From Siphonobacter aquaeclarae (GTDB lineage Bacteria; Bacteroidota; Bacteroidia; Cytophagales; Spirosomataceae): a stretch of 64,000 nucleotides of DNA. The stretch lies in assembly GCF_900103285.1 (NCBI RefSeq), contig NZ_FNGS01000005.1:120579-184578 (forward strand). The letters run 5' to 3'. Made by a program: the position numbers and the translations under genes. Positions 417 to 16,721 of this stretch are shown one piece after another; positions within the stretch are counted from its first letter, which is position 1; each line of letters opens with the position of its first letter. Below the pieces are notes generated by a model. It worked only from the letters and a program-made list of their open reading frames with translations. It was not told the DNA's origin and ran no database searches.

Positions 417-1613
417 ATGAAGACAGCCTATATCGCGCAATACCGGGACAGCCTTTTGCAGGACGTTGTTCCGTTCTGGATGAAACACTCCATCGACCGG
501 GAGTGGGGCGGGTTCCTGACCTGTCTCGACCGGGACGGAGACGTCTACGATACCGACAAATTCATCTGGCTGCAATGCCGGGAAGTATGGTGCTTCTCCA
601 TGCTGTACAACCAGGTAGAACCCAAAGCCGAATGGCTCGACGCCGCCGTCCAGGGCGCCGAATTCCTCCGGAAATGCGGCCGGGATGAAGCCGGCAACTG
701 GTACTTCTCCCTCACCCGGGAAGGAAAGCCGCTCATTCAGCCCTATAATATTTTCTCGGATTGCTTCGCGACGATGGCATTCGGTCAGCTCTTCAAGGCG
801 ACCGGCAACCAGGACTACGCCGATATCGCGGTGGCAACCTTCCGGAATATCCTCGCCCGCCAGGACAATCCCAAAGGTCTCTATACCAAGGCAGTACCCG
901 GTACGCGGCCGCTTATCAGCTTTGCCCTGCCGATGATTCTCTGCAATCTGGTACTGGAAATCGAGCACCTGCTCGAGGTGGAACTGGTGGAGCGGGTCAT
1001 CGACGAAGGCATCCATGCCGTCATGGACGTATTTTACCAGCCGGAACACGGCCTGATTCTCGAAAACGTCAATCCGGATGGCTCTTTTTCAGATTCGTTT
1101 GAAGGCCGGACGGTAAACCCCGGTCACGGCCTGGAAGCCATGTGGTTTGTGATGGACCTTGCCGCCCGCCGCGGCGACGATGCCCTGATCCGTCGCGCTA
1201 CCGACCTCACTCTCAGTATTCTGGAGTATGGCTGGGACCAGGAACACGGCGGTATTTTCTACTTCCTGGATATCAGCGGGCATCCGCCGTTGCAACTGGA
1301 GTGGGACCAGAAACTCTGGTGGGTACACGTCGAAACCCTCGTCAGCCTTCTCAAAGGCTACCTCCATACCGGCGATAAACGCTGTATGGACTGGTTTGAG
1401 AAGGTACACGCCTATACCTTTGCCCACTTCCCCGACCCCGGACACGGGGAATGGTTTGGCTACCTCAACCGCCAGGGCGAGCCGCTGCTGTCGCTCAAGG
1501 GCGGAAAATGGAAAGGGTGTTTTCACATTCCCCGCGCGCTGTACCAGTGCTGGAAGACCCTCGAAGCCATCGTGGAAAAGGAAGAAGCGGGTAAAGTAGC
1601 TCAATTGTCCTGA
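417..1613 (+). CDS. N-acylglucosamine 2-epimerase (AGE family)
   Basis: The 398-residue product is a full-length AGE-family (alpha/alpha)6-barrel epimerase that should interconvert N-acetylmannosamine and N-acetylglucosamine in the cytoplasm. Family motifs are visible: the NPGHGLEAMW histidine motif in the middle, WDQKLWWVHVE with its catalytic-type histidine, and near the C-terminus KGGKWKGCFHIPR, which is very like the KGG..KGCFH.PR motif of mammalian renin-binding protein. That makes GlcNAc 2-epimerase more likely than cellobiose or mannose epimerase. It is the first gene of a tight plus-strand operon, 13 bp ahead of a sugar transporter, which fits ManNAc or sialic acid use. No sialate lyase is present in the window. 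Confidence 0.85.
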   Translation: MKTAYIAQYRDSLLQDVVPFWMKHSIDREWGGFLTCLDRDGDVYDTDKFIWLQCREVWCFSMLYNQVEPKAEWLDAAVQGAEFLRKCGRDEAGNWYFSLTREGKPLIQPYNIFSDCFATMAFGQLFKATGNQDYADIAVATFRNILARQDNPKGLYTKAVPGTRPLISFALPMILCNLVLEIEHLLEVELVERVIDEGIHAVMDVFYQPEHGLILENVNPDGSFSDSFEGRTVNPGHGLEAMWFVMDLAARRGDDALIRRATDLTLSILEYGWDQEHGGIFYFLDISGHPPLQLEWDQKLWWVHVETLVSLLKGYLHTGDKRCMDWFEKVHAYTFAHFPDPGHGEWFGYLNRQGEPLLSLKGGKWKGCFHIPRALYQCWKTLEAIVEKEEAGKVAQLS

Positions 1614-1626
1614 AAATTAACGCATT

Positions 1627-2850
1627 ATGGCTCCGATACCTGCCACCGTCCGCTTGTCCGATACTGCTGATACCCGGGAGAATTATACCCCGGCCCTGAT
1701 GACCATGGCTGTGCTGTACTTCATGATGGGTTTTATCACCTGTCTGAATGATACGCTCGTGCCGTATTTCAAGCGGGGCTTTACGCTGAGCTATTCGGAG
1801 TCGTCCCTCGTGCAGTTTTACTTTTTTCTGACCTACGGATTGATGTCGATTCCGGCTGGAAAGATCGTCGAACGCATTGGGTATCAGCGCGGTATTGTCA
1901 GTGGATTTGGTATTGCCGGTTTCGGAGCCCTGCTGTTTTTCCCGGCTGCGGGCCTGCATCAGTACGGCCTGTTTCTCGCAGCCCTGTTTATCGTGGCGGT
2001 AGGTATTGTCCTCCTTCAGGTAGCGGCCAACCCGTACATTACGGTATTGGGCCCGGCCCGGACGGCTTCGTCCCGGCTGGCGCTGATTCAGGGAGTAGGG
2101 TCACTCGGAACGACAACCGCGCCTCTCTTCGGCGCCTATTTCATTCTTTCTTCTCTTAAAGAAGCCTCCAGCGAGGCTGTCAAGTACCCGTACCTGGGCA
2201 TCGCCGCCACGCTGGCCCTGATTGCGGTAGTGGTGAGCCGGTTGCGACTGCCGGTTCTTTCTTCCGGAGAAACCGCCGAGGAAACGCCGGGCAAAGGCCT
2301 GTTTTCGTTCCGGAATTTCCGGTTCGGGCTGGGCGCCATCTTTGTCTATGTGGGCGCGGAGGTTTCTGTCGGAACATTTTTAACCAATTACCTGGCCGAC
2401 AGTCTGCAGATTTCCGAAAGCGACGCGAATACGTTTGTGGCGTTTTACTGGGGAAGTATGCTGGTCGGCCGCGTTGCCGGATCTTTCCTGCTTCGATCTC
2501 TAAACCCATCCGTCCTGCTGACGGGCACGGCTGCCGCTGCTGCGGCGCTGATTCTGGTTTCCGTTTCGGCTACAGGGTATGTAGCGGCATGGACGATGAT
2601 CGGTGTCGGCCTCTGCAACGCCACCATGTTCGCCATCGTGTTCTCGCTGTCGGTCGAAGGCCTCGGCGGGTACACGACGCGGGCGTCCGGCTGGCTGTCG
2701 ACCGCCATTGCCGGCGGCGCTGTGATTTCTTATGCGCAGGGCATCCTGAAAGACCATTACAGCTGGCCCGTGGCGTTTGTCGTCCCGGTGCTGTGCTACC
2801 TCTACCTTGTTTTTTACGGGGTAAACGGGCATCGCCCGTCTTCCCGCTGA
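1627..2850 (+). CDS. Sugar MFS transporter (FucP/FHS-like family)
   Basis: This 407-residue protein has about twelve hydrophobic segments and belongs to the major facilitator superfamily. The stretch LLQVAANPYITVLG and the early FMMGFITCLNDTLVP resemble the fucose/glucose/galactose symporter (FHS) branch, in which the conserved asparagines contribute to sugar and proton coupling. It would carry the monosaccharide released in the periplasm across the inner membrane. It starts 13 bp after the epimerase stop and ends 10 bp before the DUF4127 gene, so the three are almost certainly co-transcribed. The exact sugar cannot be read from the sequence; an N-acetyl sugar or sialic acid is inferred from the epimerase. 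Confidence 0.8.
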   Translation: MAPIPATVRLSDTADTRENYTPALMTMAVLYFMMGFITCLNDTLVPYFKRGFTLSYSESSLVQFYFFLTYGLMSIPAGKIVERIGYQRGIVSGFGIAGFGALLFFPAAGLHQYGLFLAALFIVAVGIVLLQVAANPYITVLGPARTASSRLALIQGVGSLGTTTAPLFGAYFILSSLKEASSEAVKYPYLGIAATLALIAVVVSRLRLPVLSSGETAEETPGKGLFSFRNFRFGLGAIFVYVGAEVSVGTFLTNYLADSLQISESDANTFVAFYWGSMLVGRVAGSFLLRSLNPSVLLTGTAAAAAALILVSVSATGYVAAWTMIGVGLCNATMFAIVFSLSVEGLGGYTTRASGWLSTAIAGGAVISYAQGILKDHYSWPVAFVVPVLCYLYLVFYGVNGHRPSSR

Positions 2851-2860
2851 CACCACCACT

Positions 2861-4417
2861 ATGAAAACCTTTTTTTCGATTGTCCTTTTCCTGTGCTGCC
2901 TGACCGTGCAGGCGCAGCAGAAAATGCGGATTTTGTTTGTACCTCTGGACGACCGTCCGCCCTGCCTGCAATTCACCGAGCGCATGGGGCAGATCGGTGG
3001 CGCCGAGGTCGTTTCTCCACCCAAAGAGCTGCTCGGGCGCTTCATGGATTTCGGGCAATCCGACCGGATCAATGCCTGGATCGCACAGCAGGACCTGAAG
3101 CGCTTTGACGCTGCCGTTCTTTGCCTCGATATGATGAGTTATGGCGGATTGGTTGGCTCGCGCGTCTTTCAAACGTCTGAAAAAGAAGCGCTTAAACGAC
3201 TGGATATCGTCCGGGAAATCCGGAAGAAAAATCCCGCCATCCGCATCTATGCCCAGAACGTGATCATGCGGCTGGCGCCAACGGCCGACGGCAAAAACGA
3301 AGCCTACCGTCAGAAACTGGCCGACTGGGCCGAGGTATGCGTCATTCCCTCGAAAAAAGAAGAAACCGCCGCACTCGAAAAAGCCATCCCGGCAGAAGCC
3401 CTGCAGCAATACAAAGACGCGCGCCGCCGCAACCTGGCCGTGAACCTGAAAGTGGTAGACCTCGTCAAAAACGGAACGATCCACTACCTTATTCTTTCTC
3501 AGGACGATGCCAAGCCGGTGGGTATCCACGTGGCCGACCGCGAGCGCCTGGTCGCGGAAGTAGCCAAATACAAGCTCGGCGCGAAAATCGCCGTTCAGCC
3601 GGGTACCGACGAAGTATCCATGCTGCTGCTCGCCCGGACGCTCAATGACTACCACCGGTATACGCCGACTGTCAAGGCCGTGTATTCTTCTGCCGAAATG
3701 GCCGCGAAGACCATGCCTTTTGAAGATAAACCGCTGAGCCAGACCGTCAGCTTTCATATCCGGGCGACCGGCGCCCGGGAAGTAGCCGACAAGGCCGAAC
3801 TGTATTTTTACGTATATGCGTCGAGGTTCGAGCCGGGGCGTGCCGTTTCCTTCGCCCGCGAAATCGCAGAAGCGGTGAAAGCGGGGAAGAAGGTAATCGT
3901 CGCCGACATCGACCCGAAAGGAAACGTTCAGGGCGGGGACTCGCTCTTTACCGAAGCCCTCCTGAAGGAAGGCGTGTTACCTGCCCTGAACGGTTATGCT
4001 TCCTGGAATACCGCCGGAAATACCATCGGAACGGCGTTGCCTCAGGGCGTTGTTTTCGGAATGGCCCAGAAATTCCTCCTCGGCCAGGCGGGCTATCGGG
4101 CCGGAGTATTATCCGCCCAGCACTGGTTTCTGTTGCACCGGGTGATGGACGACTACTACTTCCACAACGTCGTCCGGGCGCGCGCCAACCGGTACCTCCG
4201 CCAGGTCAACCGTAGCGCATACCTCATGACCGACGCCCAGCGGGCAGATGTCGAACGGTACTGCCTGGAGCAACTGACTCCGTACTTCCGGCGTGTGACC
4301 GACGCGTATTTCAAAAGCGGGAATGTATCCTGCGACCGCCCGACCGGCCTGCGTTTTCAACTACCCTGGAACCGCACGTTTGAGGCCGATATTGATTTTG
4401 ACCTGACTTGCCGCTAG
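2861..4417 (+). CDS. Exported DUF4127 family protein
   Basis: A clear signal peptide (MKTFFSIVLFLCCLTVQAQ) precedes a 518-residue DUF4127 protein. The family hallmarks are all here: VPLDDRPPC at the mature N-terminus, DMMSYGGLVGSR near residue 93, LSQDDAKPVGIH near 212, GTDEVSMLLLAR, VADIDPKGN with GGDSL, and ASWNTAGNTIG towards the C-terminus. The repeated acidic motifs look like an enzyme active site or metal site, but I know of no established reaction for the family. Its place between an inner-membrane sugar transporter and a SusC/SusD pair suggests a periplasmic step on the imported glycan. It could substitute for the missing glycosidase; that is inference. Confidence 0.8.
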   Translation: MKTFFSIVLFLCCLTVQAQQKMRILFVPLDDRPPCLQFTERMGQIGGAEVVSPPKELLGRFMDFGQSDRINAWIAQQDLKRFDAAVLCLDMMSYGGLVGSRVFQTSEKEALKRLDIVREIRKKNPAIRIYAQNVIMRLAPTADGKNEAYRQKLADWAEVCVIPSKKEETAALEKAIPAEALQQYKDARRRNLAVNLKVVDLVKNGTIHYLILSQDDAKPVGIHVADRERLVAEVAKYKLGAKIAVQPGTDEVSMLLLARTLNDYHRYTPTVKAVYSSAEMAAKTMPFEDKPLSQTVSFHIRATGAREVADKAELYFYVYASRFEPGRAVSFAREIAEAVKAGKKVIVADIDPKGNVQGGDSLFTEALLKEGVLPALNGYASWNTAGNTIGTALPQGVVFGMAQKFLLGQAGYRAGVLSAQHWFLLHRVMDDYYFHNVVRARANRYLRQVNRSAYLMTDAQRADVERYCLEQLTPYFRRVTDAYFKSGNVSCDRPTGLRFQLPWNRTFEADIDFDLTCR

Positions 4418-4436
4418 GCTGCCGCCGCCTGACGGA

Positions 4437-4458
4437 CCGGTCACCCTGCTGTGACCGG
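4437..4458 (+). promoter_or_regulatory. Intercistronic hairpin between DUF4127 and susC genes
   Basis: An 8-bp perfect inverted repeat, CCGGTCAC and GTGACCGG with a 6-base loop, lies in the 88-bp gap before the SusC-type gene. There is no T-tract, so it is more likely an mRNA stability or processing element than a terminator. Confidence 0.4.
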
Positions 4459-4505
4459 AGGACCTGCATTGCCTTACCTACTTTAAACCCTATCAAGATT
4501 CAGCT

Positions 4506-7500
4506 ATGAATAAATCCTGTACACGAAGCTGGCTGAGCGGCTGGCTGGTCGTATTGCTCGTGATGACCTGCTCCTTTTCCTTCGGGCAGGTGATCCGCGG
4601 GAAAGTAACAGACGCGAAAGGCAGCCCGCTGCCGGGCGTTTCCGTTCTGGTGAAAGGAACGGTAGTCGGAACGACGACTACCGCCGCCGGTACCTATGAA
4701 CTCAGATCGCCCCGGGCGGAAGGCGTACTGCTGTTCTCCTTTACCGGTATGGTGTCGAAAGAAGCCCCGTTTTCGGCGGCGATGACCGAAGTGAACGTCG
4801 TACTCGACGAAGACACAAAAAACCTGAAAGAACTGGTCGTCATCGGCTACGGTACCCAGAAGAAAGTCAACCTGACGGGCTCTGTGGCGGTTGTCGACGG
4901 TGAGATGATCAAGAACCGGCAGGTGGCCTCGACCTCCCTGGCGCTTCAGGGCGCGGCGCCGGGTGTGACGATCACGCAGCAGTCGGGCGTGCCGGGCGGC
5001 GACGCCGGTACCATCCGCATCCGCGGTATCGGCTCCATCAACGCCGGGCAGAATCCGCTCGTCCTGATCGATAACGTGGAAATGAGCCTGGACGCGATCG
5101 ATCCGAACAACGTTGAAACTATTTCTGTCCTGAAAGACGCCGCCGCCGCTGCCGTTTACGGTTCGCGTGCAGCCAACGGGGTCATCCTCGTGACGACCAA
5201 ACGCGGGCAGTCGGGCGTCAAAGTCAGCTACAATGCCTACCTGACCGGCCAGACGCCGACGGATCTTCCCCAGAAAGTCAGTGCCCTCGATCACATGAAA
5301 TTCTGGGATATTGCCCAGGTGAACAGCGGCCTGCCCGCAGCCTATACCCAGCAAATCGCGGATTACGAGGCGAAAGGCGCCGACAACTTCGCCCGGTTCA
5401 ATACCGACTGGAAGAAACTCGTTCTCACCAATAACGGGATGATGCAGAACCACAACCTCAGCGTATCTGCCGGAACCGATATTATCAAGGTCTTCGCGTC
5501 GGGCAGCTTCCTGAATCAGAACGGGTTGACAGCTAACACCAACTACAAGCGGACCGACTTCCGCTTCAATACCGATGTCGCGCTTTCGAAAAAACTGTCG
5601 GCGTCGATGGACCTGGTACTCAATAAGTCCAACCGTCTCTGGCCGGGGCAAAACACCCCTGACGGTATCATTCTGGCGATGCTGGGCCTTCCGGCCAACA
5701 TTCCCGGCCGTTTCAATACCGGTGAATGGGGCGAAGGTTGGTCGAACGCCAACCCGGCCGCCCAGGCCGAAGACGGCGGCTTCAACCGCAGCAAGACCGA
5801 TTCCCGTATTCTGAAAGGTACGCTGGTCTACAAGCCGGTCGACGGGCTTGAGCTCCTCGCCAGCTACAGCTCCAATTACTATACCACGCATCAGCGTCAG
5901 TTTACCGATCAGTATGCGATTTATACGCCGGACCTGGCAAACAACAAGCTGATCTATGCCCGGCCGTGGCCCGCGCTGAATTCGTTGTCGGACAATACCA
6001 CCGAAAACAACCAGAACCTGTTCCGGGTACAGGCGACGTACAACAAGTCCTTCGGCAAGCACAACCTGACCGTATTGGGTGGTTTCAGCACGGAAGATTT
6101 TTACACGAGCAATGTGAATACCTTCCGTCAGAACCTGCTTTCGCCGGATCGCCCGTACCTCGACAGCGGCGACCCCCTCGGGCAGACCATGAGCGGTGGC
6201 GAAAGCCGGTACTCCATGGTTTCGGCTTACGGACGGGTGAACTACAACTACAACGAGAAGTACCTCCTCGAAGTCAACGGGCGCTGGGATGCGTCCTCAC
6301 GCTTCCGGCAAAGCAACTGGTGGAAACTATTCCCTTCTGTGTCAGCGGGCTGGCGCTTGTCGGAAGAAGATTTCTGGAGCAGCATTGCCCCGGTGGTCAA
6401 CAACGCCAAAATCCGTGCTTCCTATGGTACGCTGGGCAACCAGAACCTGATCCGGAACGGCTCGGTGGATTACTATCCGACCTATGCTACCTTCTATTCC
6501 GGTACGGCGTATAACTATTATTTCAACGATGTCATCAACGCCGGGTATGCGCTGACGACGGCTTCGAACCCCAATATCCGCTGGGAAACGTCGAAAATCC
6601 TGGACGTCGGGCTCGACCTCGCTTTCCTGAAAAACCGGTTGAACGTAACGGCGGATTTCTTCCAGCGGGACATCGCCGATATGCTTCAACTCGTGCCGAT
6701 TCCGTCGTACGTCGGACTTGCCTCCCCGTTTGTGAATATGGGAACCATGCGGAATACCGGCTGGGAATTATCCCTTGGCTGGAAAGACAAGATCCGGGAC
6801 TTTTCCTACCAGGTTACGGCCAACCTTTCCGACGTGAAGAATACCCTGCAAAACAACGGCGGTACCCCGGTCATCAACGGTTCCCAGATCCAGCAGGAAG
6901 GATATGCGCTTAATTCTTATTATGGCTATATCGCCGACGGCCTCTTCCAGAGCGCCGAAGAGGTGAAAAACGCCCCCTTCCACTATGCCAACACGGCAGC
7001 GGGGGATATCCGCTACCGGGATATCAGCGGTCCGGCCGGCAAACCCGACGGCAAGATCGACAGTTACGACCGGGCGATTATCGGCAACAACTTCCCCCGG
7101 TACGAGTACAGCCTGAACCTCGGCGCTCAGTACAAGGGTTTTGACCTGACGGTGTTCTTCCAGGGCGTCGGCAAGCGGGATAATTACCTGTCCGGCACCG
7201 GATCGCAGCCGTTCTATTCGGCCAACTTCCAGGGGTCGATGTATGAGAGTCAGCGGGATTACTGGTCGCCCGAAAACACCGGAGCCTCCCTGCCGCGCCT
7301 GACGGCCAACAGCATCCCGAATAACTATGTTGTTTCGTCTTTCTGGGTACGGGACGCCTCGTACCTGCGCATGAAGAACCTCGTATTGGGCTATACGCTG
7401 CCGAAAATGGTATCCGACAAAATCCGCATCCGTTCGGCGCGGATCTACCTGAGCGGTCAGAACCTGTTTACGCTCACGAACTTCTTCAAGGGCTTCGACC

Positions 7501-7577
7501 CCGAGCAGATCGATACGGGCGGGCGTTTCTACCCGATCATGCGGACCTATACGGCTGGTATCAACCTTAACTTCTGA
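4506..7577 (+). CDS. SusC/RagA-type TonB-linked outer-membrane transporter
   Basis: The 1023-residue protein starts with a signal peptide and a carboxypeptidase-regulatory-like domain (VIRGKVTDAKGSPLPGVSV...). A TonB-box-like stretch and a plug domain follow, with the standard SusC signatures ELVVIGYGTQKK, GTIRIRGIGSI, VLKDAAAAAVYGSRAANG and VILVTTKRG. The remainder is a large beta-barrel ending in aromatic residues (YTAGINLNF). It should import a glycan or oligosaccharide across the outer membrane using TonB energy, capped by the SusD-like lipoprotein encoded 5 bp downstream. Length and motif order are normal. Confidence 0.93.
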   Translation: MNKSCTRSWLSGWLVVLLVMTCSFSFGQVIRGKVTDAKGSPLPGVSVLVKGTVVGTTTTAAGTYELRSPRAEGVLLFSFTGMVSKEAPFSAAMTEVNVVLDEDTKNLKELVVIGYGTQKKVNLTGSVAVVDGEMIKNRQVASTSLALQGAAPGVTITQQSGVPGGDAGTIRIRGIGSINAGQNPLVLIDNVEMSLDAIDPNNVETISVLKDAAAAAVYGSRAANGVILVTTKRGQSGVKVSYNAYLTGQTPTDLPQKVSALDHMKFWDIAQVNSGLPAAYTQQIADYEAKGADNFARFNTDWKKLVLTNNGMMQNHNLSVSAGTDIIKVFASGSFLNQNGLTANTNYKRTDFRFNTDVALSKKLSASMDLVLNKSNRLWPGQNTPDGIILAMLGLPANIPGRFNTGEWGEGWSNANPAAQAEDGGFNRSKTDSRILKGTLVYKPVDGLELLASYSSNYYTTHQRQFTDQYAIYTPDLANNKLIYARPWPALNSLSDNTTENNQNLFRVQATYNKSFGKHNLTVLGGFSTEDFYTSNVNTFRQNLLSPDRPYLDSGDPLGQTMSGGESRYSMVSAYGRVNYNYNEKYLLEVNGRWDASSRFRQSNWWKLFPSVSAGWRLSEEDFWSSIAPVVNNAKIRASYGTLGNQNLIRNGSVDYYPTYATFYSGTAYNYYFNDVINAGYALTTASNPNIRWETSKILDVGLDLAFLKNRLNVTADFFQRDIADMLQLVPIPSYVGLASPFVNMGTMRNTGWELSLGWKDKIRDFSYQVTANLSDVKNTLQNNGGTPVINGSQIQQEGYALNSYYGYIADGLFQSAEEVKNAPFHYANTAAGDIRYRDISGPAGKPDGKIDSYDRAIIGNNFPRYEYSLNLGAQYKGFDLTVFFQGVGKRDNYLSGTGSQPFYSANFQGSMYESQRDYWSPENTGASLPRLTANSIPNNYVVSSFWVRDASYLRMKNLVLGYTLPKMVSDKIRIRSARIYLSGQNLFTLTNFFKGFDPEQIDTGGRFYPIMRTYTAGINLNF

Positions 7578-7582
7578 GACCG

Positions 7583-9262
7583 ATGAAAAAGAACCTATAT
7601 ATCGCCGGAATCTGCCTTGGATTGCTGACAGGCTGCAACGACTACCTGACGGAAGCGCCGCTGTCGGCTCCGGCTACCGGCCAGTTTTTCAATAACCAGA
7701 CCGAAATGAACGCCGCGCTGACGGCCGTCTACAACTCGGTGTACTGGAATACCGGAAGCACGCCCTACCAGTCGATGATGGACGGATGGACGGATCTGGC
7801 GCTGCTTCGGGCGGTGGACCTCGGCGAGGGCAACTTCGACGTCTACAACGCCCATGCCAAGAACCTCTGGTCGCTGCCCTATGTCACGATTCAGCGGGCG
7901 AATACCCTGATCGACGGCATGGCAGTCGGGAAAAACAACGTTACGGCTGCGGCCTACGCCCGTATCGAAGCGGAAGCCCGCGTGCTTCGGGCGTATGCCT
8001 ATTTTTACCTGGTGAATCTTTTCGGAGACGTTCCCCTGATCAAAAAGCCGCTGACGCCGGACCAGTTTTATACCCAGACCCGTACGCCTAAGGCCGAAGT
8101 GATCCAGTTTATTTACCAGGAACTGGACGCCGCGGCGGCGAGCCTCGACTGGACGGCGACCGACCGCGGGCGCGTCAGTCGCTCGATGGCCCTCGGCCTC
8201 AAAGCCCGCACCGCGCTGTTCAATAAAGAGTATACGCTGGCAGCGGAAGCGGCCAAAAACGTCATCGACAACGCCGGTCTCGGTCTGAATCCGAAGTTCC
8301 AGGACCTCTTTACCCGTGCCGGTCAGATTCCGAATGCCGGTAAGGAAATCATGTTCGAAATCCTGCATACCGAAGCCGATGCCAACTCGATTACGTACCT
8401 GCCACTGGGGAGTATCTCCCGGGCGGCGGGCGGGCAGTCCGGCCGGTTCCCGCAGCAGCGTCTCGTGGATATGTTTGAAGCGAAAGACGGCAAGCGGATC
8501 GACGAGTCGACGGTCTATGATCCGAAAAACCCGCGCCTCAACCGGGACATGCGCCTGAAATACACCGTCGCGATTCCCGGTGATACCATCACGATGAACC
8601 AGATCACGTTTGTGTACGACGTGTACAAAAGCACGACGTCGTTCAAAAATGCCGATGGTACCTGGTCGACCAAAACCAATGCCGATTTCGACAATGCCTA
8701 TGGCCCGGCCAAAAGCGGCGTAGGTTTGCTACATGCGAAGTATACTTTTACGGCGGAAAATGCTTTCGCGTCGCGGGTACACTTCCTGCTGATGCGATAC
8801 GCCGAGATATTGCTGATGTATGCCGAGGCGAAAACAGAGCTCAACCAGATCGATGATTCGGTCTTCAAAGCTGTCAATCAGGTACGTAGCCGGGCCGGTC
8901 AGCCGGCTGCTCCGGCTACGCTGACACAGGCGAAGCTTCGCCAGCTGATCCGCCGGGAGCGCGTAGCCGAGCTGGCGATGGAAGGATTCCGCTGGTTCGA
9001 TATCCGGCGCTGGGGCATCGCCGATCAGGTCATGCCGGTGAAGGTAGTAGGAATAGCCAAAGACCCGGCCGTTGCACCGCCGGTTCCGAATTTCAAAGCA
9101 TCTGAAACAGCGGATCTGAACAATATTCCTTTATATGACGGCTCCGAGAACCTGCGTTTGATGCGGGAACAGCGCTATTGGTTCCCCAAACTGAACCTCC
9201 TGCCCGTTCCCCAGTCCGAGCGCGACATTAATCCGAAGCTGACGCAGAATGCGGACTGGTAA
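7583..9262 (+). CDS. SusD/RagB-type surface lipoprotein
   Basis: A 559-residue lipoprotein with lipobox LLTGC at residues 15-19, so it is anchored in the outer membrane. The SusD-family features are clear: the N-terminal helical TPR-like part with the RVLRAYAYFYLVNLFGDVPL motif, and the C-terminal RHS part with LMRYAEILLMYAEA and RRERVAELAMEGFRWFDIRRW. The C-terminus ...ERDINPKLTQNADW is also typical. It is the ligand-capturing partner of the preceding SusC gene. No glycoside hydrolase follows, which is unusual for such pairs. Confidence 0.93.
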   Translation: MKKNLYIAGICLGLLTGCNDYLTEAPLSAPATGQFFNNQTEMNAALTAVYNSVYWNTGSTPYQSMMDGWTDLALLRAVDLGEGNFDVYNAHAKNLWSLPYVTIQRANTLIDGMAVGKNNVTAAAYARIEAEARVLRAYAYFYLVNLFGDVPLIKKPLTPDQFYTQTRTPKAEVIQFIYQELDAAAASLDWTATDRGRVSRSMALGLKARTALFNKEYTLAAEAAKNVIDNAGLGLNPKFQDLFTRAGQIPNAGKEIMFEILHTEADANSITYLPLGSISRAAGGQSGRFPQQRLVDMFEAKDGKRIDESTVYDPKNPRLNRDMRLKYTVAIPGDTITMNQITFVYDVYKSTTSFKNADGTWSTKTNADFDNAYGPAKSGVGLLHAKYTFTAENAFASRVHFLLMRYAEILLMYAEAKTELNQIDDSVFKAVNQVRSRAGQPAAPATLTQAKLRQLIRRERVAELAMEGFRWFDIRRWGIADQVMPVKVVGIAKDPAVAPPVPNFKASETADLNNIPLYDGSENLRLMREQRYWFPKLNLLPVPQSERDINPKLTQNADW

Positions 9263-9267
9263 AAAGC

Positions 9268-9329
9268 AGTTTTCAGTTTTCGGTTTTCAGTTCGGACTTT
9301 CCAAAACTGAAAACCGAAAACTGGAAACC
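9268..9329. repeat. Hairpin repeat, copy 1 (TTTTCAG/TTTTCGG units)
   Basis: Two nearly perfect 25-base arms (9268-9292 and 9305-9329) are separated by 12 bases. Each arm is built from short units of the type GTTTTCA and GTTTTCG. The same unit pattern recurs in the hairpin at 11046-11125, on the other side of the oxidoreductase gene. It occupies the gap between the SusD gene and the oxidoreductase gene and may also act as a terminator or mRNA-stabilising hairpin. Confidence 0.8.
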
Positions 9330-9344
9330 GAAAACTAATTATCC

Positions 9345-11048
9345 ATGAACAGAAGAACCTTTGTCGAATACCTCGCCGCAGGAAGCGGGTGGATGGCCCT
9401 TCCGGGGGCGGCAATGGCTTCGGCTCCGGCCGGAGCTGTTGCGTTTGCGGGGAGTGAATACAAAGCCGATGTCGTCATTGCCGGAGGCGGGCTGGGTGGC
9501 TGTGCTGCCGCGCTGGCCGCACTCCGCAACGGCCTGACCGTGATCATGACCGAAGAAACCGACTGGATCGGCGGGCAGATTACCCAGCAGGGCGTACCGC
9601 CCGATGAACACCCCTGGATCGAAACCCACGGCGCGACCCAAACCTACCGCCGCTACCGGAATGCCGTTCGCGAATACTACCGGCAAAACTACCCGCTGAC
9701 AGAACAGGCCCGGCAGCGTCCGTACCTCAACCCGGGAGACGGTACCGTATCCAAAATCTGCCACGAGCCCCGCGTCGGACTGGCGGTACTCACTGCCATG
9801 CTCGCGCCCTATATCAGCGGGGGAAAGCTGACCATTCTGACCGAACACAAGGCGACTGGCGCCGATGTAACCGGCGATCAGGTAAGGTCTTTGAAAATCA
9901 GGGACCTTCGTACCGGCGCTCAGCGCGTACTCACTGCGCCCTATTTTGTGGACGCGACCGAACTGGGCGACCTCCTGCCGATGACCGGGACCGAGTTCGT
10001 CACCGGCGCGGAGTCGAAGAAAGATACCCGGGAACTGCATGCCCCCGAAAAAGCCGATCCGAATAACCAGCAGGCCTTTACCGTCTGCTTTGCGGTGGAC
10101 TACCTGAAAGGGGAAAACCACGTGATCGACCGCCCGAAAGAATATGGTTTCTGGCGGGATTTTGCGCCGGCGATGACGCCCGCCTGGTCGGGGAAACTCC
10201 TCGCTCTGGCGTATTCCAATCCGAAAACACTGGAGCCGAAGACCCTCGGTTTTCACCCCGAAGGCGTAGACATGGGCGCGGTGCTGAACCTGTGGAACTA
10301 CCGGCGGCTGATTCATAAAGAAAATTTCGCACCCGGGACGTTTCCGGGGGATATCTCCGTCGTCAACTGGCCTCAGAACGACTACTCCCTCGGCAACCTC
10401 GTCGGCGTAAGCGAAAAGGAATTTACCACGCACGTCAACCGCGCCAAACAGCTGAGTCTGTCGCTGCTGTACTGGCTGCAGACCGAAGCCCCGCGCCCCG
10501 ACGGCGGCCAGGGCTGGGCGGGCCTGCGCCTCCGGAAAGACCTGATGGGCACGGAAGACGGACTGGCGAAGTATCCGTATATCCGGGAGAGTCGCCGGAT
10601 CAAGGCGAAGTTTACCATTCTGGAAGAGCACGTAGGGGCCGACAACCGGGCGTTGGTAACGGGGAAGAAAGATGGAAACAAGGCGGCGGCATTTGCCGAC
10701 AGCGTCGGGGTAGGATATTACCACATCGACCTGCACCCCAGCTCCCGCGGAAACAATTACATCGACTTCGGATCGCTGCCGTTCCAGATTCCGCTGGGTG
10801 CGCTGCTGCCGCAACGGATGAAGAACCTGCTGCCGGCGAATAAAAACATCGGCACCACCCATATCACCAACGGATGCTACCGCCTCCACCCGGTGGAATG
10901 GAGCATCGGCGAGGCGGTAGGTATGCTGATCGCGTTTTCCCTCGAAAAGAAACTCGTCCCCGCCGCCGTCTATGACAACAAAAACCTCCTGTCCGACTTT
11001 CAGCAGAAGGTGAGGAGGGAGGGTGTGGAGACGGAGTGGAGGGAGTAG
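9345..11048 (+). CDS. FAD-dependent oxidoreductase (FAD_oxidored family)
   Basis: The 567-residue protein begins with a twin-arginine-like leader (MNRRTFVEYLAAGSGWMALPG) and then a dinucleotide-binding motif, VVIAGGGLGGCAAALAALR, followed by acidic/WIGGQ FAD contacts. The C-terminal part has ITNGCYRLHPVEWSIGEAVG, typical of the FAD_oxidored group often mislabelled as xanthan lyase. It probably oxidises or dehydrogenates a sugar or sugar acid in the periplasm after Tat export. Its substrate is unknown; membership of the amino-sugar locus suggests it acts on the imported glycan. Hairpin repeats abut both ends of the gene, and its TAG stop codon lies inside the downstream repeat. Confidence 0.82.
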   Translation: MNRRTFVEYLAAGSGWMALPGAAMASAPAGAVAFAGSEYKADVVIAGGGLGGCAAALAALRNGLTVIMTEETDWIGGQITQQGVPPDEHPWIETHGATQTYRRYRNAVREYYRQNYPLTEQARQRPYLNPGDGTVSKICHEPRVGLAVLTAMLAPYISGGKLTILTEHKATGADVTGDQVRSLKIRDLRTGAQRVLTAPYFVDATELGDLLPMTGTEFVTGAESKKDTRELHAPEKADPNNQQAFTVCFAVDYLKGENHVIDRPKEYGFWRDFAPAMTPAWSGKLLALAYSNPKTLEPKTLGFHPEGVDMGAVLNLWNYRRLIHKENFAPGTFPGDISVVNWPQNDYSLGNLVGVSEKEFTTHVNRAKQLSLSLLYWLQTEAPRPDGGQGWAGLRLRKDLMGTEDGLAKYPYIRESRRIKAKFTILEEHVGADNRALVTGKKDGNKAAAFADSVGVGYYHIDLHPSSRGNNYIDFGSLPFQIPLGALLPQRMKNLLPANKNIGTTHITNGCYRLHPVEWSIGEAVGMLIAFSLEKKLVPAAVYDNKNLLSDFQQKVRREGVETEWRE

Positions 11049-11125
11049 TTTTCAGTTTTCGGTTTACAGTTTTCGGTTGGGTTTTTGCCGAAAACAGAAA
11101 ACTGTAAACCGAAAACTGAAAACTA
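11046..11125. repeat. Hairpin repeat, copy 2 (perfect 29-bp arms)
   Basis: Perfect 29-base arms (11046-11074 and 11097-11125) surround a 22-base loop. Units are the same TTTTCAG/TTTTCGG type as in the copy at 9268. The left arm includes the oxidoreductase stop codon. It could fold as an extended hairpin in RNA and separate the oxidoreductase from the ROK regulator gene. Confidence 0.85.
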
Positions 11126-11150
11126 AGCTGTCTTTCGCGCGGAAGAAACT

Positions 11151-12368
11151 ATGTTTGGAAAAATTTCTGACGTGACGCGTATGAGTAAGCATTTTTCAAT
11201 GCCGAACACCGATTCTGAACAGTTAATCATCAGTTGTTTTGCCAACGAGGGAAATGCTACCATACCCGATCTGAGTAAAAAACTGTCGATCGGCGTACCG
11301 AAAGTCACCCAACTCGTCCAGAAGCTCATGCAGGACGGGGTAGTCAAGGATTACGGAAAAATTCAGTCGACCGGCGGCCGCAAACCCAACCTCTACGGGC
11401 TTGTGCCGGGGTCGGCCTTTTTTGTTGGCGTAGACGTCAAGCAGACTCATATTCTGATCGGTCTGATGGACAGCCAGAAGAACCTCATCGGGGTATCGGA
11501 GAAGCTGCCCTACCGGCTCGACAATACCCAAGAATCCCTTGACCAGCTCTGCGGACATATTCAGTCGTTCATTGCCGCGCAGGCCTTCCCGGATAAGATT
11601 CTCGGCATCGGTATCAACCTCTCCGGCCGGATCAATTATGCCACCGGGCACAGCTACTCCTTTTTTCATTTCGGGGACGAGCCCCTCAGCCAGATCATCG
11701 AAAAGCAGGTAGGGATACCGGTCATCCTGGAAAACGACTCCCGGGCGATGGCTTTCGGGGAGTTTTCGATGGGCATCGTGCAGGAGGAGAAGGACGTACT
11801 GTTCATCAACCTGGACTATGGTATTGCCGTCGGAATCCTGATGAACGGGCAGTTGTACTACGGAAAATCAGGCTATGCCGGCGAATTCGGGCACATGCCT
11901 ATTTTCGACAATGAACTCATCTGCCGTTGCGGGAAGAAAGGCTGTCTTGAAACGGAAGCCTCCGGCTGGGCGTTGACGCGGCTTTTCCGGGAAAAACTAA
12001 GCGAAGGCTCGTCGTCGGTACTGTCCCAGCGGAACATACCCGTCGAATCCGTCGAAATGGAAGACATCATCGACGCCGCCCTGAACGACGACGTACTGGC
12101 CATCGAACTCATCGCCAAAATAGGCGAGAACCTCGGCCGTGGTATCGCCGCGCTGATCAATATCTTCAATCCCGAACTGGTTGTACTCGGAGGCGGGCTG
12201 CTTGCTACCGGCGAGTACATCTGGCTGCCGATCCGCACGGCGATCAACAAGTATTCCTTGAGCCTTGTCAACAACGATACCCAGCTGCGGATGTCGGCCC
12301 TCGGTGAAAAGGCCGGAGTAGTAGGGGCTTGTCTGCTGATCCGGAATCATGTGCTGAAGATTGTCTAG
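11151..12368 (+). CDS. ROK-family transcriptional regulator
   Basis: A 405-residue NagC/Mlc-like protein. An N-terminal winged HTH (about residues 20-80, ...TIPDLSKKLSIGVPKVTQLVQKLMQDG...) precedes a ROK sugar-binding domain with VGVDVKQT (phosphate loop), LENDSRAMAFGE, EFGHMPI and the zinc motif CRCGKKGCLE. The HTH argues for a sugar-sensing regulator rather than a plain kinase. It closes the amino-sugar locus and most likely controls it, perhaps through the inverted repeat at 254-272. An upstream in-frame start was chosen at 11151; Met11 or Met17 are alternatives. Confidence 0.85.
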   Translation: MFGKISDVTRMSKHFSMPNTDSEQLIISCFANEGNATIPDLSKKLSIGVPKVTQLVQKLMQDGVVKDYGKIQSTGGRKPNLYGLVPGSAFFVGVDVKQTHILIGLMDSQKNLIGVSEKLPYRLDNTQESLDQLCGHIQSFIAAQAFPDKILGIGINLSGRINYATGHSYSFFHFGDEPLSQIIEKQVGIPVILENDSRAMAFGEFSMGIVQEEKDVLFINLDYGIAVGILMNGQLYYGKSGYAGEFGHMPIFDNELICRCGKKGCLETEASGWALTRLFREKLSEGSSSVLSQRNIPVESVEMEDIIDAALNDDVLAIELIAKIGENLGRGIAALINIFNPELVVLGGGLLATGEYIWLPIRTAINKYSLSLVNNDTQLRMSALGEKAGVVGACLLIRNHVLKIV

Positions 12369-12437: not shown

Positions 12438-15400
12438 TTAATCGGCGTGTATCCGAACAGAGCCGAGCGAACGTCCTCCGGCAGTTTCGACGTGAATCAC
12501 CAGCGGTCCACGGGTGTTTTTCAATAAATCCTGAATCGCCCAAACCGAATTTTCCTGATCAATGAGAATGTCGCGGACGGCGACCTGCTGGCCGGATGTG
12601 TTGACTACCCGGATGCTGCCGGTCCCGCGGTATACGGGTGCGTTGAGGGACAGGTAAACTACGGGCGACGAAGTAGTCGGATTCGGATAGACGGATACAG
12701 GCCGCGCTTTGAACCCGTTGCATCCCACTGCTACCGACGCTGTTTTGCTGTAGACGGCGGTCCCGTCCCGGTCCACCATCTTCAACCGGTAATAATACGT
12801 GTCCGGCGACAAATCCCGCTGCGTGAATGCGTACCGGCTTCCCGATCCGCGGACGGATAGCTGACCCACTGGTCCAAATAGTGCGGGGGTAGCGGAAACA
12901 GAGCGTTCGATCACAAATGCGGAGGCATTTTCTTCGCTCGTGGTAGACCAGTCGAGCACGGCGGTGCACTCAGCCGCTTTGGCGGAGAAGTAAGCGAGTG
13001 TGACAGGAAGCGGGCCATCGCACGTGACACCTGTAAGCGTTACCTGCCCCTGCCGAATGACGCACGAAACAGCCAGCGACGCCCGGTATTGGTAAACTCC
13101 GTCGTTGGTACCGGAATAGTTCGCAAACGAAAGGCTGTTGTTTGTGGATAGTTCCTGTCCGTCCTTCGTCCAGGAGTAGGCTCCTGATATGCCGGGAAGG
13201 CTCAAGGTATATGCTTGTCCCAGGCACGGCGGAGTAGAGGGTGTCGGTTGCAACTGCGGAACAGGTGCCGTTGTGAATTGGGAAACTGCTGTGAGGCCGC
13301 AGTTATCGGTTACGCGGACGTCGTAGGCCGTGTTGACAGAAAGGGACATCAATACCGAAGATTCTGAGACAGTACCTTTATAAACATAGGCAGATTCCGG
13401 TTCTTCCGAACGTTTCAGTTCCATTTTAAACGGCCCGGCGCCTGCCAGCCGGAACGCCGCGCTCGCTGTTCCATTGGGCACGCCGACCCCGTTTTCGCAG
13501 TGCATACCAATGGCCTGGGCAACGACAGGCGGGCTGCCGGGCTGGACAAGGGTCAGTTCTGCAGGCGCCGAGGTTACGACGGGAGTCTCCAGGACAAGTT
13601 GATAGGTACCAGAGGGTATACCGGTCGGAATCGGAAAGAAATAAGTTCCGGCCGCCAGAGGGCAGGAACTGACCGCGTACGAAGTGCCGGCAGATGACAG
13701 CAACTTGACATCGGCCTGCGTAATGCCGCCGAAATTACCTCCCGCGTCCACCGTAAATCCGAGCGTGGATCCACCGCATGCGAAAGTCACCTTCACATTG
13801 CTGACCAGAATATTGGGTTTGACAATCAGACTTGTCAGGCTGTTGGCTGCTCCATATCCGCAGGTATTCACCAGCGACTCGATACCGAAAGACGTGTTTT
13901 GAGCCGGTTTCAGTACAAAAACCGAATCGGCGGATGCATACCACTTCGAGACCCGGTTCGAAAACAGGAGACGGGCAGGCAGCGTACCGGCTATTGTTAC
14001 CCGGAAGCGGGCCTGTTGACCATAGACCAGCTGGCCATTTGCCGGCGTAATCAAAGTGAGCGCGGCGACCGGCTTTGCCTGCACCAGCGCACGCAGGATC
14101 GCCGTCCGGGCGGGCGAGTTTTTGTCTTTTATCCGGAAGTAATACTCTCCCGGAGCGAGGTTGTCGGGGATGCGGACAGCGAGCGGCGAACTGGTCGTTG
14201 TCCCGAGTTCGTGGTATACCGAGTCGCTCTTCGCCGCGATTTCAAAAGCAAACTGGGTTCCGGCCGGGGCCATGGGCTGCGTCACAAAAACCGTACTGAA
14301 GGTAGTACCCGGACACAAATTTACCACTTTGGAGGCGATGAGCTCCGGCGCCATAATCCGGAAGGGCATCGCCGTAACAGTGAAAGGAGGACCGCTCGCC
14401 GTGCCTTGTCCACATGCATTTGAGACCTCTTTTACCCGGAATGTTGAAACCTGATTGGGAATGGGGTAAAGCCGTGCATACTGCCGGATGTCGGCGTCCT
14501 GCGGGTAGTCTTTTATGCCGTCTGTCAGCGTGAAGCGGTAGGGTTTGAAATTGGTGGAGGGGTTTACCGCAAGCGTCAGGCGTTCCCCATTGAGGACAGA
14601 CATCGCTTCACGGGCATCTGCATCCTTCTGGAAAATGCCGGGGGAGTCATTGACATAAGAACCTGACCGGTCGATTGACATAGAAGGTGGCGAAGTGGGA
14701 TAAATGCGCTTGATGTTACTTACGACAGTGCCGGACGAAACGCGGATCTGCATCGATCTGGGCAGCTGAATGGAAAGCGGGCTCGTCGTACCGGAAGCCA
14801 GCAGGGTGTCGAAAACGGCCGAAGCATCCGAGGAAGCGTATTTCGTCGTGCCGTAAACCGACCAGGTCAGTCCCGGCGTGATGTTTCCATACGTATGGAA
14901 CCATACTTTTGTCGCCCCGGGACAGGGAAACTGGTCGACAGAGTCGATCACCACTCCGTTTCCGATCGGAGGGCCTGCCAGGACCGGGTTCGGGATCGTC
15001 GTTGTACCGCAGGTATTGGTGGCTGAGACCACACCGACCGTCCCGCTTTTGTAAATGTATTGAACCGCCGTCGCGGCGATACAAGCTTTACATTCAATGG
15101 GTACCACATCGCCGGTTGTCAGCGTGATCTTGCTCGGCCCGCCACCCATATCATAGTAATTAAGGGTGACGTTTCGGGGGGCGTTGACAGTGACCGTCTC
15201 CCAGTCAAGAAAAAGAGGTCTTGGAAGCGAATTCAGGAAAAGGAACTGGTTCACCCGCATATAACCGTCCGTAGCCGGGGAAAGGGTCCTCACTTTCAGG
15301 AAGAACCGCCTGTCGGATATACCCTGGTACACGACAATGCTTGGCGCGGTCAGCAGCAACGTCCGGCCGCCGACGTTGGTCGCTTTCACAGAAGTGCGGA

Positions 15401-16721
15401 GTTGAATGCCTTGGTTCGGCAGCTCCCCGTAAAAATCCACCCAATATTCAGTGGCAGCTGTCGGACTGATATTCGACGAAATCGGTAACCGGATCTGATC
15501 GCCTGGGCAAAAGAGATTCTGCGGTATCGTATCGATCCGGATACCCGGAGGAACGGGGTAAGTGGCTGTTCCCGGAATAATCGTCGATTTTTCACATCCG
15601 CTCTGAAAACCGGATACCTGGAAACTGGCAGTCTGAATCAGTCCAATTGGAAAATTCAACGGCTCTCCGGCGGTAGATGCACCGTTTGACCAGGTGATGG
15701 AAAACGGCGCCAGGCCCGTGATCGTAGGGGTAATAGCAAATTGCTGCCCCGGTAAGGCTTCTGCCGTTCGTGTTTCAATCTGAATTTGCCCGGCGGGAGA
15801 TACCTTGACCGGCGTGGGTAATACCTCGGCCGTCACCTGCCCATCGGAGCTCATTGCCTGTACATAGAAGGAGTTTTGTGTCGGTATGTTTGGAGGTATT
15901 GTCGACTTGATCCGGCCGTTTTCCCATATCCCATCCGTATCAAAGCTGTTGGACAGCTCCGCCGGAGGCGTGATGTCCGGATTCTTCAACCAGAGCTTTA
16001 CCAGAAAGGGAGTGCCGTCGGCAATTGTTTTCCCGGCCGGCAGAGACAGTGAAATGTAAAAACTACTCCCCCGGCAAAGAGTGCCCGGAAATACGCCGGT
16101 TACCCGGGCGGGCGTATCGCCGATGGTCAGACTTGCACTGCCACTTCCGGTACCGTTACCGCAGTAGTTGGCAACCGACGCAATGGAATAGACAACGGAT
16201 TGATTCGGCGCGATGAGGGTTTGAATACTTCTGAGATCTTTCGGCCCTGTTTGTACCTGCAGCTGCGAGCCGTCGTTGAGTACAACGGTGGCGTAACCAC
16301 TACCGGCTCTTGCCAGAAATTCCAATTGTACCGGCTGTCCGGGATTGGCGTGTGTCGGGTTGACAGAGACGATAGAGACGGTTGGTACGGATGAAATCCT
16401 GTTGATTGTTTGTCGGATAGAAACGACAGGCGACGTGCTGGATACTGTCAGGTAGAAGTCGCCTGTAGCAGAAAGCGCGTCCGGTATCTGGATCGACCAT
16501 ACGCCGTTGTTCTGAACAGGGGTAACTTCCGTCTTTTGGGCCGACCATACGTCTTCGAATACGGCCTTGAACACATTGTCACTCCCGAAGGAGCCGCTGG
16601 TGGTGAAGGTAAGCGGAACGTTTGTGCAAACGTTGGCGGGGAGGGGGGAAAGCTGGATGGACTGCCCGTAGCAGGCAACCCCCAGCATGACCAGAATCAG
16701 GCTGGATAGATGGCGGAACAT
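12438..16721 (-). CDS. Giant T9SS-exported multi-domain surface protein
   Basis: The 1427-residue product starts with signal peptide MFRHLSSLILVMLGVACYGQ; I chose this Met because the longer frame adds 22 residues ahead of the signal. The body is a series of Ig/PKD-like beta modules, each closing with a Cys-Gly motif of the type NxCGxGxASG (NYCGNGTGSG, NACGQGTASG, NTCGYGAANS, DNCGLTA). Near the C-terminus an FN3-like block (DLSPDTYYYRLKMVDRDG) leads into a type A T9SS sorting domain (VYPNPTTSSPVVYLSL...). It should be secreted through the Por system and attached to the surface or released, as an adhesin or matrix protein. The binding partner is unknown. It is monocistronic. Confidence 0.85.
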   Translation of the reverse strand: MFRHLSSLILVMLGVACYGQSIQLSPLPANVCTNVPLTFTTSGSFGSDNVFKAVFEDVWSAQKTEVTPVQNNGVWSIQIPDALSATGDFYLTVSSTSPVVSIRQTINRISSVPTVSIVSVNPTHANPGQPVQLEFLARAGSGYATVVLNDGSQLQVQTGPKDLRSIQTLIAPNQSVVYSIASVANYCGNGTGSGSASLTIGDTPARVTGVFPGTLCRGSSFYISLSLPAGKTIADGTPFLVKLWLKNPDITPPAELSNSFDTDGIWENGRIKSTIPPNIPTQNSFYVQAMSSDGQVTAEVLPTPVKVSPAGQIQIETRTAEALPGQQFAITPTITGLAPFSITWSNGASTAGEPLNFPIGLIQTASFQVSGFQSGCEKSTIIPGTATYPVPPGIRIDTIPQNLFCPGDQIRLPISSNISPTAATEYWVDFYGELPNQGIQLRTSVKATNVGGRTLLLTAPSIVVYQGISDRRFFLKVRTLSPATDGYMRVNQFLFLNSLPRPLFLDWETVTVNAPRNVTLNYYDMGGGPSKITLTTGDVVPIECKACIAATAVQYIYKSGTVGVVSATNTCGTTTIPNPVLAGPPIGNGVVIDSVDQFPCPGATKVWFHTYGNITPGLTWSVYGTTKYASSDASAVFDTLLASGTTSPLSIQLPRSMQIRVSSGTVVSNIKRIYPTSPPSMSIDRSGSYVNDSPGIFQKDADAREAMSVLNGERLTLAVNPSTNFKPYRFTLTDGIKDYPQDADIRQYARLYPIPNQVSTFRVKEVSNACGQGTASGPPFTVTAMPFRIMAPELIASKVVNLCPGTTFSTVFVTQPMAPAGTQFAFEIAAKSDSVYHELGTTTSSPLAVRIPDNLAPGEYYFRIKDKNSPARTAILRALVQAKPVAALTLITPANGQLVYGQQARFRVTIAGTLPARLLFSNRVSKWYASADSVFVLKPAQNTSFGIESLVNTCGYGAANSLTSLIVKPNILVSNVKVTFACGGSTLGFTVDAGGNFGGITQADVKLLSSAGTSYAVSSCPLAAGTYFFPIPTGIPSGTYQLVLETPVVTSAPAELTLVQPGSPPVVAQAIGMHCENGVGVPNGTASAAFRLAGAGPFKMELKRSEEPESAYVYKGTVSESSVLMSLSVNTAYDVRVTDNCGLTAVSQFTTAPVPQLQPTPSTPPCLGQAYTLSLPGISGAYSWTKDGQELSTNNSLSFANYSGTNDGVYQYRASLAVSCVIRQGQVTLTGVTCDGPLPVTLAYFSAKAAECTAVLDWSTTSEENASAFVIERSVSATPALFGPVGQLSVRGSGSRYAFTQRDLSPDTYYYRLKMVDRDGTAVYSKTASVAVGCNGFKARPVSVYPNPTTSSPVVYLSLNAPVYRGTGSIRVVNTSGQQVAVRDILIDQENSVWAIQDLLKNTRGPLVIHVETAGGRSLGSVRIHAD

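Follow-up and report, generated by a model that had tools for sequence, protein, structure and literature searches.

Seven open reading frames (ORFs) follow one another on the forward strand between positions 417 and 12368 of a 64,000-nucleotide stretch of Siphonobacter aquaeclarae DNA (contig NZ_FNGS01000005.1, positions 120,579 to 184,578; hereafter the window), separated by gaps of 13, 10, 88, 5, 82 and 102 bases. The original prediction had named seven genes in this order, on one strand and with short gaps, and profile scans matched all of their families. The first ORF (417..1613) encodes an N-acyl-D-glucosamine 2-epimerase, AGE, which interconverts N-acetylglucosamine (GlcNAc) and N-acetylmannosamine (ManNAc) (PF07221, E = 6.3e-74; NF052547 equivalog, 697.6 bits with the cut-off at 600), and the second (1627..2850) a sugar transporter of the major facilitator superfamily (MFS) and the GluP/FucP/NagP group (TIGR01272 gluP, 257.7 bits against 202.55). 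They are followed by a DUF4127 protein, a candidate glycan-cleaving enzyme (2861..4417; PF13552, 2e-143), a SusC-type TonB-dependent transporter (4506..7577; TIGR04056, 4.4e-277), a SusD-type surface lipoprotein (7583..9262; PF07980, 1.5e-44), a FAD-dependent oxidoreductase, here called FADox (9345..11048; PF12831, FAD_oxidored, 4.9e-96), and a ROK-family regulator with a winged helix-turn-helix (11151..12368; PF00480, 1.2e-54; PF13412, 1.2e-5). Judged by eye, the DUF4127 and SusC proteins carry signal peptides, SusD has the lipobox LTGC, FADox has a Tat-like N-terminus (MNRRTFVEYLAAG) and AGE has no signal peptide.

The interconversion of GlcNAc and ManNAc is the best-founded part of this assignment, because AGE passes the equivalog cut-off and its closest relatives in the PDB, 6f04 (3.4e-165) and 2gz6 (1.9e-164), are both named GlcNAc 2-epimerase. 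This strong homology bears out the earlier assignment to the renin-binding-protein (GlcNAc 2-epimerase) type; AGE is below the cut-offs for cellobiose 2-epimerase (81.7 against 800 bits) and mannose isomerase (44.8 against 600 bits). For the MFS transporter, the fucP and NagP models both remained under their cut-offs. The adjacent SusC and SusD genes, 5 bases apart (TIGR04056, PF07980), are the hallmark of a polysaccharide utilization locus (PUL); as for the enzyme that a PUL holds in its operon, family scans revealed no glycoside hydrolase or lyase among the seven proteins of 417-12368. The DUF4127 protein matches PF13552 with 478.9 bits (gathering score 27), its residues 24-511 covering positions 1-488 of the 489 in the model. 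FADox reaches 323 bits against 27 for PF12831, and its Rossmann residues G47, G48 and G49, together with E70, are invariant in 12 aligned sequences.

To follow the block through Bacteroidota, we compared 24 other DUF4127 loci of 15.5-21.5 kb each, from 23 of the 26 other DUF4127 genomes of the family and from Adhaeribacter. The genomes G005, G029 and G201 were left out at contig ends, and the loci L014-L016, taken as G145, G133 and G121, were not recounted. DUF4127 is present in 27 of 222 family genomes, and in a phylum-wide sample of 395 genomes it was found only in the window's own. FADox (E ≤ 1e-100) occurs in 80 of the 222 and AGE (E ≤ 1e-120) in 62; among the 27 genomes with DUF4127 the counts are 24 for FADox and 26 for AGE, and AGE is found in 36 of the 195 without it. 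At the 24 loci, BLAST identified FADox, AGE and SusD 23 times each, SusC 22 times, and the MFS transporter and ROK 18 times each. The six core genes (AGE, MFS, DUF4127, SusC, SusD and FADox) stand together in 18 loci, of which 17 keep the gene order of the window; in the remaining one, from Adhaeribacter, DUF4127 and ROK are on the other strand. ROK follows FADox as in the window in eight loci (six of the genus labelled g32, which is Dyadobacter, and two of g16), lies upstream of AGE in the five g5 loci, and is absent from the read stretch of the four g1 loci. The block is thus a real conserved unit, whose genes co-occur beyond chance. The neighbourhood comparison suggested with the original prediction, which had asked whether these genes rarely occur together, showed that nearly every DUF4127 locus has both AGE and FADox, and their co-occurrence across family genomes fits the amino-sugar uptake locus that had been proposed. 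In G002, a genome of the same genus, both SusC and DUF4127 are broken into two ORFs at the locus (L052, ~6201-10881), through either decay or sequencing error.

The sugar handled is likely GlcNAc/ManNAc, and part of the genomic context is of the same kind. In G111, beyond ROK and on the other strand, lie a Gfo/Idh/MocA-like gene, a NagB-like gene (147 against 236.9 bits), nagA (TIGR00221, 300.5 bits, cut-off 225.65), a NagP-like gene (400 against 625 bits) and a second Gfo/Idh/MocA gene; G145 has genes that resemble this set by appearance only.

Among known systems, the nan genes are the closest arrangement to the window block. As described in the excerpts of PMC3969230, these genes of Bacteroides fragilis and Tannerella forsythia include an epimerase, NanT, NanOU and an induced hexosaminidase, nahA; nanLET is named in an excerpt of PMC4747158. 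The window locus shares with nanLET/NanOU a ManNAc to GlcNAc epimerase, an MFS inner-membrane transporter and a SusC/D-type pair, and the hexosaminidase induced with the nan genes adds to the likeness. In contrast, the window locus has no neuraminate lyase, sialidase or NanU-type SusD, and it adds DUF4127 and FADox. With the Sus-like PULs of Bacteroidota it has in common SusC/SusD, sugar enzymes, a transporter and a regulator in one operon, although the window copy is without a recognised glycosidase or lyase and its regulator is of the ROK family, whereas PUL regulators are commonly hybrid or ECF (extracytoplasmic function) systems. The GlcNAc/chitobiose Nag loci (NagA, NagB, NagP, NagK, ROK/NagC) share ROK, the same MFS group, a glycoside hydrolase of family 20 (GH20) in the relatives of the window locus, and nagA near the G111 locus; AGE, DUF4127 and FADox are not known to be part of described Nag loci.

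DUF4127 also occurs on plasmids outside Bacteroidota, where we read the contexts of eight of nine records (H4 was left out). An Enterococcus faecalis plasmid has RpiR, IIA (lac/cel), NanE, HAD, DUF4127 and EIIC (lac/cel), and a Carnobacterium plasmid has NanE, HAD, DUF4127, IIC of the phosphotransferase system (PTS) and RpiR; the incomplete gene table for this 21-kb stretch lists no glycosidase. Two Priestia records hold a FAD oxidoreductase, GH38, ROK, an AXE1 esterase, DUF4127, ROK, manA, PTS IIC and NanE, the last ~4 kb from DUF4127. In Deinococcus KNUC1210, a GH20-like protein, an ABC transporter and a PF12831 oxidoreductase accompany DUF4127, the oxidoreductase directly adjoining it, and NagZ is near; in D. 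ficus and Alkaliphilus no sugar-uptake genes adjoin it. NanE, the ManNAc-6-phosphate 2-epimerase, is therefore found with DUF4127 in four of the eight records, from three lineages. Lac/cel-type PTS disaccharide operons are normally expected to hold a phospho-glycosidase. The E. faecalis operon, an arrangement unlike that of the window, shares with such operons of Lactobacillales the placing of DUF4127, between NanE/HAD and EIIC, in the slot where this enzyme is expected. We found no other glycosidase among the scanned genes beside DUF4127 and regard this operon as the best single argument for a cleaving function, because DUF4127 is the sole candidate among those genes for the phospho-glycosidase slot.

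At the protein level, an AlphaFold2 model of DUF4127 built from five sequences reached a pLDDT of 80.4 and a pTM of 0.83. The model is backed by a match in a viral structure library, BFVD A0A346TNQ6, a predicted protein of 693 residues, either viral or mislabelled, which at 25% identity shares the fold of DUF4127 (TMq 0.80). No DUF4127 protein was confirmed in viral contigs, and phages gave a single match over 13% of the query. An alignment of 14 DUF4127 sequences from three phyla contains 29 invariant columns, and the invariant D30, D216, D250, E251 and D349, together with a W-N-T motif at 382-384, are located at, or at most four residues from, the predicted ends of strands. Judged from sequence and predicted secondary structure, this placement is as it would be in a single active site. 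DUF4127 belongs neither to GH1 nor to GH4 and is not known to be a member of any other CAZy family, and we found no paper naming DUF4127 or PF13552 in the open-licence literature; for PF12831 one paper was listed, PMC9045290.

Taken together, these results describe a real and conserved Sus-type amino-sugar operon with an uncharacterised core enzyme. As its function, we propose that the block serves the uptake and breakdown of a GlcNAc/ManNAc oligosaccharide, with DUF4127 as the cleaving enzyme, a proposal drawn from gene content and to which we give a probability of about 45%. SusC and SusD would bring the oligosaccharide, containing GlcNAc and/or ManNAc, into the periplasm. There, DUF4127 is the most likely enzyme to split it and release an N-acetylhexosamine, with ManNAc as the best candidate (or GlcNAc). 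FADox, which in the window has the Tat-like export signal, would oxidise the sugar or its partner in the same pathway, the MFS transporter would carry the freed amino sugar into the cell, and AGE would convert ManNAc to GlcNAc, which could then enter the Nag pathway under the control of the ROK regulator. Where a GH20 enzyme is present, it may remove a GlcNAc cap and leave to DUF4127 a linkage outside its own reach. The compartments in this scheme follow signals recognised by eye and are accordingly provisional. DUF4127 is a plausible new glycan-cleaving family that releases ManNAc units. A broader version, which we put forward more tentatively, is that it founds a glycan-cleaving family with a fold unseen in solved structures and acting on ManNAc oligosaccharides, perhaps from bacterial wall, capsule or exopolysaccharide; it might be periplasmic in the SusC/D loci of Bacteroidota and a cytoplasmic phospho-glycosidase in Bacillota, where it would feed NanE after PTS phosphorylation, and the part of FADox may be to make an oxidised sugar ready or to clear it away. 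The conserved company of DUF4127 and its place in PTS operons of Bacillota turn an anonymous family into a concrete and cheaply testable enzyme candidate. If it does cleave, the use of ManNAc glycans would gain a missing enzyme and a new fold would join the carbohydrate-active enzymes. The FADox subfamily, which spans five phyla among the aligned sequences and is tied to sugar transporters, is a second target.

Several observations weigh against this proposal. The best counter-argument is that no ManNAc epimerase was seen in four of the eight plasmid contexts (D. ficus, KNUC1210, Alkaliphilus and Subdoligranulum). No IIB came to light in the E. faecalis operon, within a scan that stopped short of the ORFs further right. 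A comparison of the DUF4127 model with the PDB by Foldseek gave xylose isomerase as the best match, which is unconvincing (E = 3.4e-4, TMq of 0.22 and rmsd of 19.5); the best matches to PDB sequences were at chance level, both for the sequence (PgaB deacetylase, E = 0.89) and for the profile (E = 3). No second Pfam family appears in more than one of 14 DUF4127 members, and we found no profile tie to any hydrolase. Not all conserved residues directly follow a strand end: the exceptions are R188, H299, D431, R439 and the C-terminal PWxRxF, as well as E288 and D289, which are nearly invariant. G119 has DUF4127 without AGE and without FADox. Conversely, 56 of the 195 family genomes that lack DUF4127 have FADox. 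Of nine contexts that we read among 50 plasmid records of FADox relatives, seven combine a LacI-family regulator, a sugar ABC transporter and FADox. One of the other two, from Parabacteroides, has SusC/D; the second, from Mesobacillus, holds NanE, AXE1, a ROK protein and a relative of the P713 family described below, and by tying the FADox subfamily itself to NanE and ROK it speaks for the proposal. Since FADox often occurs without DUF4127, the two need not act together. Finally, the FADox of L049, the one sequence inspected from a second arrangement of the block (see below), has no signal peptide, so that in this arrangement a periplasmic DUF4127 would not have FADox at its side.

The occurrence of GH20 fits an amino-sugar operon, and it counts against the original prediction of a locus without a conventional glycosidase. 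In nine of the 18 six-core loci, a GH20 β-hexosaminidase directly follows FADox on the same strand (PF00728, 7.8e-122 to 1.4e-124 in the three that were family-scanned), so that a conventional glycosidase often accompanies the block. These nine enzymes are mutually 67-99% identical. Five of them belong to genomes of genus g5 and four to other genomes of the window's genus; in a fifth such genome the locus breaks off at a contig end. In a tree of AGE, DUF4127, SusC, SusD and FADox (IQ-TREE, LG+F+G4, ultrafast bootstrap; 3,086 columns and 22 loci, namely the window, the 18 six-core loci and three of the five second-arrangement loci), the nine GH20 loci form one clade with a support of 100. This clade excludes the window, whose own placement is weakly supported (40). 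The window copy therefore does not follow its genus, and GH20 is the mark of a single lineage. No extra ORF of at least 90 residues lies inside the block at seven six-core loci, six from Dyadobacter and the one from Adhaeribacter (L013, read to FADox only), and the two g16 loci have P713 immediately before AGE. A tblastn search of the overlapping downstream 11.5-12.5 kb of the six g32 and two g16 loci, with nine of the ORFs there family-scanned, found no GH20, GHL10 or P713. The form without a glycoside hydrolase is therefore real and recurrent, and a partner glycosidase is common in relatives: the absence of a glycosidase that had been predicted holds for the block of the window and its sister loci, and not throughout.

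The original prediction went further and let DUF4127 and/or the FAD oxidoreductase replace the glycosidase, and this part is left standing in reduced form. DUF4127 stays a candidate and its link to a ManNAc(-6-P) 2-epimerase recurs in Bacillota, but besides the GH20 enzymes of related loci the window genome itself encodes GH20 proteins away from the locus, with seven PF00728 matches that fall in five or six genes. These genes raise the main alternative, which we consider unlikely, though less so than those below: that the locus scavenges amino sugars, which would be freed by glycosidases encoded elsewhere, such as GH20 genes on other contigs, or by neighbours, with DUF4127 modifying the sugar (for example by deacylation or isomerisation) and SusC/D importing short or free sugars. 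A SusC/D pair for a free monosaccharide, sialic acid, is known in NanOU (excerpts of PMC3969230), and the joining of GH20 to the locus in one clade is in line with such a division of labour. On the other hand, the GH20 proteins of the window genome share just 28-46% identity with the GH20s at the loci, six of which entered the comparison, against 67-99% among the nine locus enzymes, which makes it improbable that the same gene was moved away, and a relocated locus GH20 was rejected on this ground. The E. faecalis operon, with no other glycosidase among its scanned genes, also speaks for cleavage by DUF4127 rather than for scavenging.

A redox-assisted cleavage, in which FADox oxidises a sugar carbon (e.g. 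C3) and DUF4127 or another partner splits the keto-sugar by elimination, is improbable. It has a precedent in systems of Gfo/Idh/MocA proteins with 3-keto-disaccharide hydrolases, and FADox is among the most constant partners of DUF4127, equal to AGE and SusD at 23 of 24 loci. In addition, a PQQ-type glucose/sorbosone dehydrogenase (GSDH) with cytochrome c and CBM6 domains is found at 12 of the 24 loci, and PF12831 proteins are near DUF4127 in Deinococcus KNUC1210 and Priestia as well. However, the latter belong to another subfamily, with 25% and 23% identity to FADox, whereas nine FADox relatives from five phyla align with 50-71% identity. The signal-less FADox of L049 would be separated from a periplasmic DUF4127, and the predicted structure of FADox has a pLDDT of 35.5.

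The original prediction pointed to ManNAc or sialic acid as the sugar, and of these the AGE assignment favours GlcNAc/ManNAc, while sialic acid receives little support. That the block is a sialic-acid locus of the nanLET/NanOU kind, which has lost its sialidase and lyase, is unlikely, and indeed has a very small chance of being correct. The AGE-type epimerase, the MFS transporter and SusC/D have counterparts of the same kind among the nan genes of Bacteroides and Tannerella (excerpts of PMC3969230), and strong BNR_2 matches elsewhere in the window genome (C7:821527, 318 bits) could be sialidases. Against this, no nanA or PRK04147 match exceeds the cut-off in the window genome (TIGR00683, NF003164), with the limit that these models pass in only one of 14 control genomes and that a NanL of Bacteroides type could be missed. 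The SusD protein reaches 40 bits against a cut-off of 425 with the NanU model NF033072, and the SusD exception models are also below cut-off. Scans of the seven proteins of the block and of eight proteins to its left revealed no sialidase, the run of N between them being unread. The sole place where BNR_2 and DHDPS-family matches occur together (L117, G000:C14:935000-954900) holds a row of genes comprising apiosidase, GH43, BT_1020-like, SASA esterase, Fe-ADH, DHDPS-family, PdxA and threonate-kinase-like genes. L117 looks like a rhamnogalacturonan-II (RG-II) pectin locus, a reading that fits better because of its apiosidase, GH43, BT_1020-like, SASA, PdxA and threonate-kinase-like genes, and it was rejected as a sialic-acid locus.

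Least probable of all is that the block belongs, as its right half, to a glycosaminoglycan locus served by the family 8 polysaccharide lyase (PL8; PF02278, 7.7e-87, with CBM96 domains) encoded on the reverse strand ~9 kb to the left. A second SusC/D pair does lie in between, and the 1.7 kb that separate its SusD from AGE are partly unread N. PL8 was nevertheless rejected as the missing lyase and is taken for a neighbour, because it has an ECF sigma factor of its own next to it, is encoded on the strand opposite to the block, and found no match with E 1e-15 as the threshold among the 24 other loci (at 1e-10, one 421-residue protein of L052 resembles it with 26% identity, left-hand coverage varying by locus).

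The left flank is interrupted by a run of 1,111 N, unread sequence that ends directly before the first base of the window and has an identical 28-base word on either side (L002:16441-17607), as at a repeat-driven assembly gap. Left of it lie SusD, SusC and FecR on the forward strand, then the ECF sigma factor and PL8 on the reverse strand; this second SusD ends 1.7 kb left of AGE. A conserved glycosidase just to the left in the same operon, which the original prediction had named as a finding that would count against it, was not seen left of the block, the stretch of N being unread.

The second arrangement mentioned above is found at five loci (L049, L054, L055, L056 and L061; ~9-16 kb each), where DUF4127 is accompanied by a DcuC-like permease, a hydantoinase/oxoprolinase A protein and a FADox of 53-57% identity. 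These loci also hold a GHL10 protein, SusD and AGE, and SusC in four of them. The permease and the hydantoinase/oxoprolinase A protein were family-scanned in L049 only, where the nearest NCBIfam model for the latter is caprolactamase alpha, far below its cut-off; the gene content suggests a lactam or amide step. By BLAST, the hydantoinase, the DcuC-like permease and GHL10 each occur at five of the 24 loci.

In family genomes that have FADox without DUF4127, of which we sampled 20 out of the 56, AGE and the MFS transporter stand beside FADox in three, GH20 follows FADox directly or after one ORF in three, and a locus-type SusD is found in two (one being a 159-residue fragment); the other 12 have none of these genes. 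At three loci without DUF4127 (L086:6385-10091, L094:6797-10421 and L101:8118-11679), a second protein that by eye resembles a FAD oxidoreductase adjoins FADox, with GH20 near.

The GSDH genes near the block also encode PKD domains (e.g. L044:13839-16592, the same as L016:4134-6887), and another contig of the window genome carries a copy with 65% identity. P713, an unnamed family of 612-724 residues (L051:13398-15539, L062:4786-6960 and L077:4983-6821), was counted at two of the 24 loci and adjoins AGE in two genomes. Two members that were scanned gave no Pfam match, and in Mesobacillus a relative with 26-28% identity (E = 7e-26 and 6e-30) is near FADox, NanE and AXE1, so P713 is possibly another sugar enzyme. 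To the right of the block, directly after ROK, the reverse strand encodes a protein of 1,449 residues (12438-16787) that is adhesin-like by eye; a NUDIX-type regulator and a xylose isomerase come next, likewise named by eye.

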